DNA of 64,000 bases from Paraburkholderia nodosa DSM 21604 (GTDB lineage Bacteria > Pseudomonadota > Gammaproteobacteria > Burkholderiales > Burkholderiaceae). The stretch lies in assembly GCF_000519185.1 (NCBI RefSeq), contig NZ_JAFA01000005.1, positions 62,001 through 126,000 of the forward strand. The letters are read 5' to 3'. The translations under genes were made by a program, and so were the position numbers. The notes below the pieces were generated by a model, which was not told where the DNA came from, ran no database searches, and saw only the letters and a program-made list of their open reading frames with translations. This document shows, piece by piece, positions 6,202 to 26,044 of this stretch (position 1 is its first letter; each line of letters begins with the position of its first letter).

Positions 6202-7392
<1,191 letters not shown>

Positions 7393-7459
7393 GTGTCAGG
7401 CTCCTTATAGCTGGTGACGGTTGAGTTCACGTAGCCAGCTTCGGGAGCTTTGAAGCGGC

Positions 7460-7556
7460 GACGCTTTAGCGGAATTGCTGCCCAGTTGCCATGATTTGCG
7501 ATCGATCATGGTCATCCGGCTTCGCCCCGCAAGTTGTCTATTAACTCGGCGAAGCC
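7460..7556 (-). promoter_or_regulatory. Candidate SAM-II-like riboswitch in the metK leader
   Basis: Read on the minus strand: a perfect 9-bp P1 (GGCTTCGCC / GGCGAAGCC), a 21-nt loop beginning GAGTT and containing GAC and TTGCGG, then GATGA, an inserted hairpin CCATGAT / ATCATGG (7489-7511), then CCGCTAAAG and GTC. The metX SAM-II element here has the same order: P1, loop GATTT..GAC..TTGCG, TGA, inserted hairpin, GGCTAAAG, GTC. GAC/GTC and GCGG/CCGC could form the P2 pseudoknot. It departs from SAM-II at the A-rich linker, and the -10 box at 7560-7565 would place the start of transcription just inside P1. Confidence 0.45.
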
Positions 7557-7559
7557 CTT

Positions 7560-7565
7560 ATTATA
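7560..7565 (-). promoter_or_regulatory. Putative -10 box (TATAAT) for metK
   Basis: A perfect TATAAT on the minus strand, about 170 nt before the metK start. No strong -35 is seen 16-18 bp upstream. Confidence 0.45.
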
Positions 7566-7652
7566 GCGACTTCCTTAAATTGTCGCAGAGTACCCTCGCG
7601 TGCCGTTCGTCGCCTTCCCCACAGTTCGCAAGCCGTGCCGCGGAGTTGCCGC

Positions 7653-8540
7653 ATGCTAGGCAAACTCGGCTCTCGTTTCGCCATCGGCTTGCTCAAGCTG
7701 TTCGCGATCCTGCCCTATGGCTTCGTCGCGCGTCTGGGCGACGGCCTCGGCTGGCTGCTCTACCAGATCCCGAGCCGGCGCAAGCGCGTCGTTCATACGA
7801 ATCTGCGCCTGTGCTTCCCCGAGTGGAGCGACGAAAAGCGCGAGGAAGTGGCGGGGCTGCACTTCCGTCACGCCATTCGCAGCTACATGGAGCGCAGCGT
7901 GCAATGGTTCGCCTCGGCGAAGAAGCTCGAAAAAATCGTCGAGCTCGACAGCGAGATCGATCTCACCGATCCGAACCTGCCGCCTACGCTCTTCCTCGGC
8001 CTGCATTTCGTGGGTATCGAGGCGGGCTCCATGTTCCTCAACTACTCGCTGCACCGGCCGTGCGGCTCGCTCTACCAGCCGTTCTCGAACCCAGAATTCG
8101 AAGCCGCGGCCAAGGCGGGACGCAGCCGTTTCGGCGCGGAAATGGTGAGCCGCGCGGACAGCGCGCGCGCCGTGCTGCGCTGGCTGCGCGACAAGAAACC
8201 CGTGATGCTCGGCGCCGACATGGACTACGGCATGCGCAATTCCACGTTCGTGCCCTTCTTCGGCGTGCCGGCGTGCACGCTCACTGCTGTGGGGCGTCTG
8301 GCGAAGGTGGGTCATGCGCAGGTCGTACCGTTCATCGGCGAGGTGTTGCCCAATTACAAGGGTTATCGGCTGAAAGTGTTCAAACCTTGGGAAAATTATC
8401 CAACCGGCGACGACGATCTCGACGCACGCCGCATGAACGCCTTCCTCGAAGAACAGATTCCGCGCATTCCCGAGCAGTACTACTGGGTCCACAGGCGCTT
8501 CAAGACGCGGCCGCCAGGCGAGCCGAGCGTCTACCGCTGA
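7653..8540 (+). CDS. LpxL/HtrB-family lipid A late acyltransferase
   Basis: A 295-aa inner-membrane acyltransferase that adds a secondary acyl chain to Kdo2-lipid IVA. The HX4E catalytic signature is seen as H118-FVGI-E123 in [10 protein letters not shown], and further family blocks are [23 protein letters not shown] and the C-terminal [15 protein letters not shown]. The N-terminus has the usual short hydrophobic helix. The ATG at 7653 was preferred to the in-frame GTG at 7635. The gene lies between metK and dapF, as in other Burkholderiaceae, and is followed by a hairpin. Which acyl chain it transfers is not evident. Confidence 0.9.
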
Positions 8541-24714: not shown

Positions 24715-24736
24715 CTGCGTTCCTTTTGCAATACCC

Positions 24737-24823
24737 ACGCGCCGATTTGCTGACTCGATTGCGGGCGCGTGAACTCCCAGGGCCTGGGCCCCGGAGTTCG
24801 ATATAAATGCGGCTAAAGAGGTC
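24737..24823 (+). promoter_or_regulatory. SAM-II riboswitch with an inserted hairpin, upstream of metX
   Basis: Matches the SAM-II consensus in order: P1 ACGCGCC (24737-24743) / GGCGCGT (24764-24770), loop GATTTG..GACTCGATTGCG, then GA, and finally TATAAATGCGGCTAAAGAGG. UUGC can pair with GCGG, and GACUC with GAGGUC, forming the P2 pseudoknot. Between the GA and UAUAAAU is an extra hairpin (24772-24798; AACTCC / GGAGTT with inner GGGC / GCCC). SAM-II senses S-adenosylmethionine and typically lies before metX/metA genes. The metX ribosome site is about 65 nt further on, so the off-switch may not be simple SD masking. Confidence 0.85.
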
Positions 24824-24898
24824 GTCAGCTGCGCCAATCCTTTCGCACTCCGCGCCCGCCGACACCGTTTAGCCGCCCGAAAAACCAAGGCGGAACGA

Positions 24899-26040
<1,142 letters not shown>

Positions 26041-26044
<4 letters not shown>

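Follow-up and report, generated by a model that had tools for sequence, protein, structure and literature searches.

The metK leader in the window (the whole stretch of 64,000 nt that was analysed) contains a SAM-II-type pseudoknot core, which probably binds SAM and is predicted to block metK translation by releasing a strand that would then pair with both the Shine-Dalgarno sequence (SD) and the GUG start codon. The core is present beyond chance: it was found in 67 of the 70 metK leaders read, the window's included (21-22 genera), and with R1, a covariance model built from metK leaders alone (38 leaders, again including the window's), the window scores 87.4 bits, against only 20.1 bits (E 0.035) for the next place in the 9.6-Mb genome. 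Since metK is a key gene for SAM supply, a SAM-II-type switch acting on its translation would, if real, close a gap that the survey of methionine regulation in proteobacteria leaves for a large beta-proteobacterial family, place feedback at both ends of the pathway (entry at metX, exit at metK) and provide a natural test of how one nucleotide of the pocket (U8 to G) acts in an aptamer fold that has been crystallised. The model from metK leaders would also add elements that are unrecognised by Rfam 15 here.

The element before metK and its conservation

Inspection of the sequence located the leader on the minus strand at about 7557-7388, where all of the parts named in the earlier note were found in the order given there, including a P1 of 9 bp and a loop of 21 nt where 20-21 nt had been reported (Table 1). 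The order is TATAAT, P1, GAGUUAAUAGACAACUUGCGG, the inserted hairpin, CCGCUAAAGCGUC, a further hairpin, and then GGAG and GUG. The second-best R1 place in the genome of the window (C30, 20.1 bits) was rejected as an element, being a terminator-like repeat. A second metK-like gene, 55% identical, is present in the same genome (G000:C89:11187-12176), and its contig is without any R1 match.

Table 1. Coordinates of features in the window; the last row gives positions within the leaders of other genomes.
Feature	Position	Strand	Basis
-10 promoter box TATAAT	7560..7565	-	sequence
P1 5' strand GGCUUCGCC	7548..7556	-	sequence, covariation
P1 3' strand GGCGAAGCC	7518..7526	-	pairs with GGCUUCGCC, 9 bp
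L1 loop GAGUUAAUAGACAACUUGCGG (21 nt)	7527..7547	-	sequence, covariation, pocket equivalents
L1 third strand GAGUU, with G in the place of SAM-II U8	7545 (G)	-	position names as in the SAM-V structure (PMC6061858)
L1 P2a strand GAC	7538-7536	-	
L1 P2 strand UUGCGG	7532-7527	-	
Inserted linker hairpin, 7-bp stem CCAUGAU/AUCAUGG	7489..7511 (7511-7505 / 7495-7489)	-	
CCGCUAAAG	7472-7464	-	sequence
P2/P2a 3' strand CCGC-U-AAA-GC-GUC	7460..7472	-	U47 A48 A49 A50 equivalents at 7468-7465
P2a 3' strand GUC	7462-7460	-	sequence
P4, predicted anti-sequestor hairpin GCGU-C-GCC-GCUUC / GAAGC-U-GGC-U-ACGU	7429..7464	-	local MFE
Predicted sequestor 5' strand	7443..7459	-	complementarity test over 21 genera; window MFE
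Predicted sequestor GCCGC, for the start codon	7459-7455	-	
Predicted sequestor GCUCC, for the SD	7448-7444	-	
Predicted sequestor 3' strand: SD GGAGC (7404-7400) and GUG start plus two following bases (7392-7388)	7388..7404	-	
metK, methionine adenosyltransferase, GUG start	6202..7392	-	ORF; NCBIfam TIGR01034, 611 bits, cut-off 309
Second SAM-II element, before metX: P1, 21-nt loop GAUUU..., inserted hairpin, AUAAAUGCGGCUAAAG	24734..24829	+	
metX, homoserine O-succinyl/acetyltransferase	24899..26044	+	ORF; NCBIfam NF047916 MetX_succinyl, 695 bits, cut-off 560
RF02424 matches (other genomes)	L085 1576-1698; L088 1583-1691; L109 1457-1585; L124 1322-1492; L135 1340-1517; L137 1359-1486	opposite the SAM-II elements	sub-threshold Rfam matches

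A profile search gave a metK match in 146 of 150 family genomes. Leaders were read in 70 of these 146, comprising the 30 best loci and 40 chosen to cover further genera, which together represent 22 of the 23 genera with metK (genus g15 was left out). The core was absent from three leaders. Two of them (L048, L049) belong to small genomes of genus g8, in which the element has decayed and metK is retained; in the third (L071) most of the core is retained, but not the third strand GAGUU.

The linker between P1 and CCGCUAAAG ranged from 13 to 76 nt. It was at least 25 nt in 62 of the 67 leaders and 13, 13, 13, 14 and 24 nt in the remaining five, four of which have a compact form with a 13-14-nt A-rich linker as in SAM-II. 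Compared with mononucleotide shuffles, the 62 long linkers have more stable predicted folds (mean z -2.59, with 58 below -1), and the sequence of the inserted hairpin is not conserved among leaders. The departure from the SAM-II consensus had earlier been placed at the A-rich linker; that linker is instead kept in the compact, hairpin-less metK leaders, and the real departure is the change of U8 to G in the third strand.

Covariation was scored in two alignments, A1, which consists of 38 of the 67 cores selected for diversity, and A3, which has 59 rows (26 from the family and 33 hits from outside) and includes SAM-II-like R1 hits that are not linked to metK. In A1, 92.1% of cells were paired and 8 of 18 pairs changed on both sides, giving a score of 0.189 against 0.088 +/- 0.009 for shuffled and at most 0.100 for slid versions. 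The corresponding values for A3 were 89.6%, 13 of 18, and 0.293 against 0.122 +/- 0.008 and at most 0.096. None of 500 shuffles reached the A1 or A3 score; because shuffles ignore relatedness, more weight falls on the slid controls and on the occurrence of ACGG/CCGU and GCAG/CUGC in separate lineages than on this count. Changes on both sides affected six of the nine P1 pairs in A1 and eight in A3, three of the six P2 pairs in A3, and two of the three P2a pairs in A3, with none of the latter in the family set A1. The P2 pairing GCGG/CCGC was replaced by ACGG/CCGU in two genera and by GCAG/CUGC in others. The test named in the earlier note, covariation of P1 and P2 across metK leaders, thus did not refute the element, with P1, P2 and P2a above both shuffled and slid controls; the pseudoknot it had proposed from GAC/GUC and GCGG/CCGC is supported, with changes on both sides of P2a in A3 only, and within the GCUAAAG that it expected to be conserved, UAAA is invariant in 59 of 59 rows of A3.

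Pocket, ligand and transcription start

Pocket positions were named after the SAM-V crystal structure, the report of which describes U47 as pairing with the SAM adenine, U8 as bonding U47 via its N3, U20:A48.U9 as half-surrounding the sulfonium, U19:A49.U10 as a further triple and A50 as holding the amino acid, with SAM binding in SAM-II said to be virtually identical (PMC6061858). The equivalents of U9, U10, U19, U20, U47, A48, A49 and A50 are invariant (59 of 59 rows of A3). The U8 equivalent is a G in 63 of 67 family leaders, the window's among them; within A3 it is G in 39, U in 18 and A in 2 of the 59 rows, and the A in the last two (L101, L107) probably reflects an alignment shift. G might replace U8 by donating its own N-H to U47. 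With U8, a base that bonds U47 in SAM-V, changed in 63 of 67 leaders, affinity or specificity could differ. The flank-site equivalents G21 and C46 change in 4 and 3 of the 59 rows, respectively, three times together. Position 18 holds A in SAM-V and C in 57 of the 59 rows of A3; this was not considered a departure, because C also occupies it in the RF00521 consensus and in nearly all canonical elements of set A2 (described below).

The G at this position would be explained by a SAM-II-derived riboswitch that has shifted to another ligand, e.g. SAH or another adenosyl compound, a kind of change for which SAM-I variants that moved to spermidine provide a precedent (PMC10853860). Such a shift is nevertheless unlikely, since neither the uridines beside the sulfonium (U9, U20) nor the bases that contact the adenine (U47) and the amino acid (A50) vary in A3, the third strand reads GAUUU (L109, L119, L128, L132) or GGUUU (L114, L115) in metK leaders of other families, and the gene context is SAM synthesis. 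The best reading is a divergent SAM-II-type element rather than a standard SAM-II member. It is a tentative extension of this reading, possible and on the doubtful side, that the metK branch forms a distinct SAM-II-type class in which the change at U8 retunes affinity or ligand choice, the set points of metK and of metX (with normal U8) differ, and the platform sequesters the GUG itself.

A leader that is read by a protein, such as MetK itself, or that encodes a leader peptide, in place of one that senses a metabolite, is very improbable. Any conserved leader could serve as a protein site, and a short ATG frame is present in the window leader, but the core corresponds to an aptamer already known to bind a metabolite, just 14 of the 67 leaders have an ATG frame of at least 15 codons that ends before the start codon, and linker lengths are spread over all three frames (26, 21, 20). 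The leader peptide was rejected because ATG frames are not conserved.

A perfect TATAAT is found just upstream of the core in 58 of the 67 leaders. With at most one mismatch the box is present in 63; its end lies 6 nt ahead of the 6-bp minimal P1 in 52 of these and 7 nt ahead in 7, so that the transcript would start at about the P1 foot. In A1 the six inner pairs of P1 are formed in 95-100% of rows and the three outer ones in 46-63%, which is the pattern expected from a start at that point. A promoter just before P1, with a start near the P1 foot, is usual for SAM-II according to Corbino 2005 (PMC1273637); in the window this trait was found for the -10 box only, and the -35 was considered poor because a strict scan of the metK leader gave no promoter-like pair at TATAAT. 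The earlier note had cautioned that this box would start transcription inside P1. The box is real (7565-7560), but with its 6-nt spacing fixed P1 is unaffected, and a start well inside P1 was set aside as unlikely given that spacing; nor does the box position (52 of 63 leaders) point to a start downstream of P1, which had been named as evidence against the element. A DNA operator, in which a metK repressor binds the 9-bp inverted repeat around the start site, would suit a repeat at the -10 box and is very improbable, the least likely of the readings weighed, because P1 covaries with many pair types, as do the pseudoknot strands across 13-76-nt linkers, and a DNA site needs neither GCUAAAG nor complementarity to the SD.

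Predicted expression platform

For a SAM-binding element of this kind, the simplest switch is predicted to be translational and OFF with SAM. GCUAAA is followed by GCGUCGCCGCUUC, a strand with three possible pairings. Its GUC can pair with GAC (P2a). GCGU-GCC-GCUUC can fold on GAAGC-GGC-ACGU to form P4, which is the local MFE structure in 48 of 67 leaders, including that of the window; P4 was judged from single-sequence folds, because its loop was aligned too badly for pair counts in the MAFFT alignment A4. Finally, GCC-GCUUC and the following bases can pair with the SD, the spacer or the start codon, over 15-16 bp in genus g10, 10-13 bp in g17, g8 and g11, 8 bp in many others and 5 + 5 bp in the window.

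The best helix between this strand and the SD-start region had a mean score of 19.83 over 21 genera, compared with 15.4 +/- 0.99 for strands swapped between genera (highest of 300: 18.22) and 12.8 +/- 0.49 for shuffled strands, in a test region that was chosen post hoc, its 3' part having been widened to the start codon after a narrower result. The narrower test, which considered pairing near the SD only, gave p <=0.05 in 24 of 65 leaders (L068 and L069 have no SD there). Example helices are GUCGCCGCUUCAA/UUGAAGUGGCGAC, GCCACUUCA/UGAAGUGGC and GCUGCUCA/UGAGCAGC. The position of the best helix varies between genera, and the partners change together: the more common GCCGC with GUGGC is replaced by GCUGCUCA with AUGAGCAGC.

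Without ligand, P4 (base GCGU/ACGU) would hold the sequestor strand and leave the SD free. With SAM, P2a would take the GUC at the base of P4, P4 would lose its foot, and the freed strand GCCGCUUC...CUCC would pair with GGAG and GUGGC, blocking metK translation. In the window leader the P4 base overlaps the P2a strand GUC, and P2a and the P4 foot are mutually exclusive, as are P4 and the sequestor. In equilibrium folds of this leader the SD was paired whether or not the aptamer strands were blocked, and the same was found in most of 8 other leaders folded. Such folding thus does not reveal the switch, which would need to be kinetic or to rely on P4; we infer that, for the ON state, P4 would form first as the RNA is transcribed. 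The window metK leader contains no intrinsic terminator. An exchange of UCGCC/GGCGA involving P1 and the 3' strand was also considered; since genera with other P1 sequences do not retain it, this idea was abandoned.

Related elements and known systems

No Rfam 15 family, RF00521 and SAM-V included, matched positions 7300-7700 even at a relaxed cut-off of E <=10, which weighs against the SAM-II-type reading. A second model, R2, was built from 34 canonical SAM-II elements (set A2, without the metK-linked L109, L178 and L187 but including L199, which also precedes metK) and was run on 53 loci. In the window, the metX element was its best match (22.4 bits, E 1.8e-4), and the next two were weak matches to the 3' and 5' halves of the metK leader (E 0.19 and 0.22), which are split by the inserted hairpin. 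At E <=0.01, R2 detected 9 of 29 family metK leaders and missed 20, and it detected 9 of 13 metK leaders from other families and all five metX loci. The compact family leaders L070, L059 and L060 matched at E 1e-8 to 5e-8 (L070 with 38.8 bits), within a range of 1e-8 to 9e-6 for the metK matches L070, L059, L097, L060, L090, L058 and L127.

R1 detected L109 (E 0.0014), a metK leader which is also accepted by RF00521 (36.7 bits); L178, a metK leader from another family, passes RF00521 at 38.8 bits, so SAM-II before metK is already within the reach of Rfam outside this order. L199, before metK, has 34.5 bits, just below the cut-off. In L178, L187 (identical to L109) and L199, from other families of the class, a canonical SAM-II lies directly before metK. 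R1 also recovered elements found by RF00521 in other families of the class (L095, L098, L102), and the eight R1 loci tested for their downstream gene (L095, L098, L099, L100, L104, L106, L110, L112) all precede O-succinylhomoserine sulfhydrylase. Among new loci, 21 of 29 in the order-wide R1 search precede metK, and only 5 of 29 in the class-wide search do so (L087, L090, L097, L101, L109), the rest being SAM-II elements before O-succinylhomoserine sulfhydrylase, second elements of tandems, and weak matches that resemble chance (L105, L111). Two weak RF00521 places in the genome of the window (C37, C61) were rejected, being without the SAM-II core. The metK leaders and canonical SAM-II grade into each other. 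The window leader alone would not pass, and standard SAM-II membership is not claimed for it because its U8 position is G and it has no Rfam match.

A metX match was found in 87 of 100 family genomes, and the leaders of the best 30 of these 87, from six genera, were read. All 30 contain the SAM-II core, with an inserted stretch that resembles a hairpin. The metX element in the window, which the earlier note called a clear SAM-II, is genuine, though RF00521 gives it only 18 bits (cut-off 36). An SD GGCGG and an intervening U[UC]UAGC[CU]G strand, which is also able to pair with aptamer GCGGCUAAAG, are present in 28 of the 30 leaders (not in L162 and L164). Within the leader at 24734-24899, each of GCGGCUAAAG, a UUUAGCCGCC further on and the SD GGCGG is complementary to the other two, which suggests a three-strand translational switch; from these complementarities, a SAM-controlled SD is likely at metX too. 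The element is probably the metXZ RNA of Leyn 2014 (PMC4239095).

Tandem leaders were observed at about positions 1501-1600 of L085, L088, L089, L107, L124, L131, L135, L137 and L139, in which a canonical SAM-II with a terminator-like hairpin is followed by a metK-type element near the start codon. The first element is listed by RF00521 in L085, L088, L124, L135 and L137 and was recognised by eye in the others; the second aptamers of L085, L088, L124, L131, L135, L137 and L139 match R1. Downstream frames encode a MoxR-like AAA protein (L088, bpMoxR), an HD-domain protein (L107) and small proteins without a Pfam match. An AAA protein also follows in L084, where only the second element is in view. 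The tandem type is already known, and these downstream genes are odd as SAM targets. Sub-threshold matches to RF02424 (Bp2_287), of 22-35 bits against a cut-off of 70, lie on the strand opposite SAM-II elements (Table 1); RF02424 may represent a SAM-II leader in reverse complement. In L109, L119 and L127 a SAH riboswitch (RF01057, above cut-off) is located downstream of metK on the same strand, which places two related metabolite switches in a row. Single metK-type elements without a recognisable downstream gene were seen in other families of the class in L091 (a frame without Pfam match), L092 (no frame) and L096 (a distant frame).

Among systems described previously, the metXZ RNA is a pseudoknot of conserved regions before metX or metZ in beta-proteobacteria, for which the available text presents a terminator-antiterminator model and names no ligand (PMC4239095). 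It occurs in the same bacteria as the metK element but is reported for metX and metZ; in the available part of that survey of proteobacterial methionine regulation, no RNA element is given for metK in beta-proteobacteria, and none was recognised in the open-access literature searched. The alignment of Corbino 2005 includes a Bordetella element (PMC1273637). Some tandem SAM-II doublets are described with a terminator-linked first aptamer and a second that apparently controls the ribosome-binding site (PMC9481103); the metK element, unlike these, stands alone, before metK.

SAM-V, as its report describes it, shares the fold and the SAM contacts with SAM-II and exerts translational control (PMC6061858), the kind predicted here for metK, and it is used as a second, translational switch after SAM-II in tandem leaders (PMC9481103). 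Its SD lies within P2a, directly 3' of the pseudoknot. In the window leader, which has no Rfam SAM-V match, the SD is not in that place: GGAG (7404-7401) is about 55 nt beyond the P2a strand (7462-7460) and would be reached by a separate strand. The differences of the metK element from SAM-II (RF00521, metA motif; Corbino 2005, PMC1273637) are the G in place of U8, a linker of at least 25 nt that is predicted to fold in 62 of 67 leaders, a GAC/GUC P2a that is nearly invariant in the family, the lack of a terminator together with the predicted sequestration of the SD and start codon, and the lack of an Rfam match at E <=10. The two share P1 with pseudoknot P2 and the CUUGC...GCUAAAG core, the third-strand UU, a promoter just before P1 and an association with methionine and SAM synthesis genes, and compact metK leaders are detected by the model of canonical elements. 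The metK leader likely functions like a SAM-II/SAM-V riboswitch.
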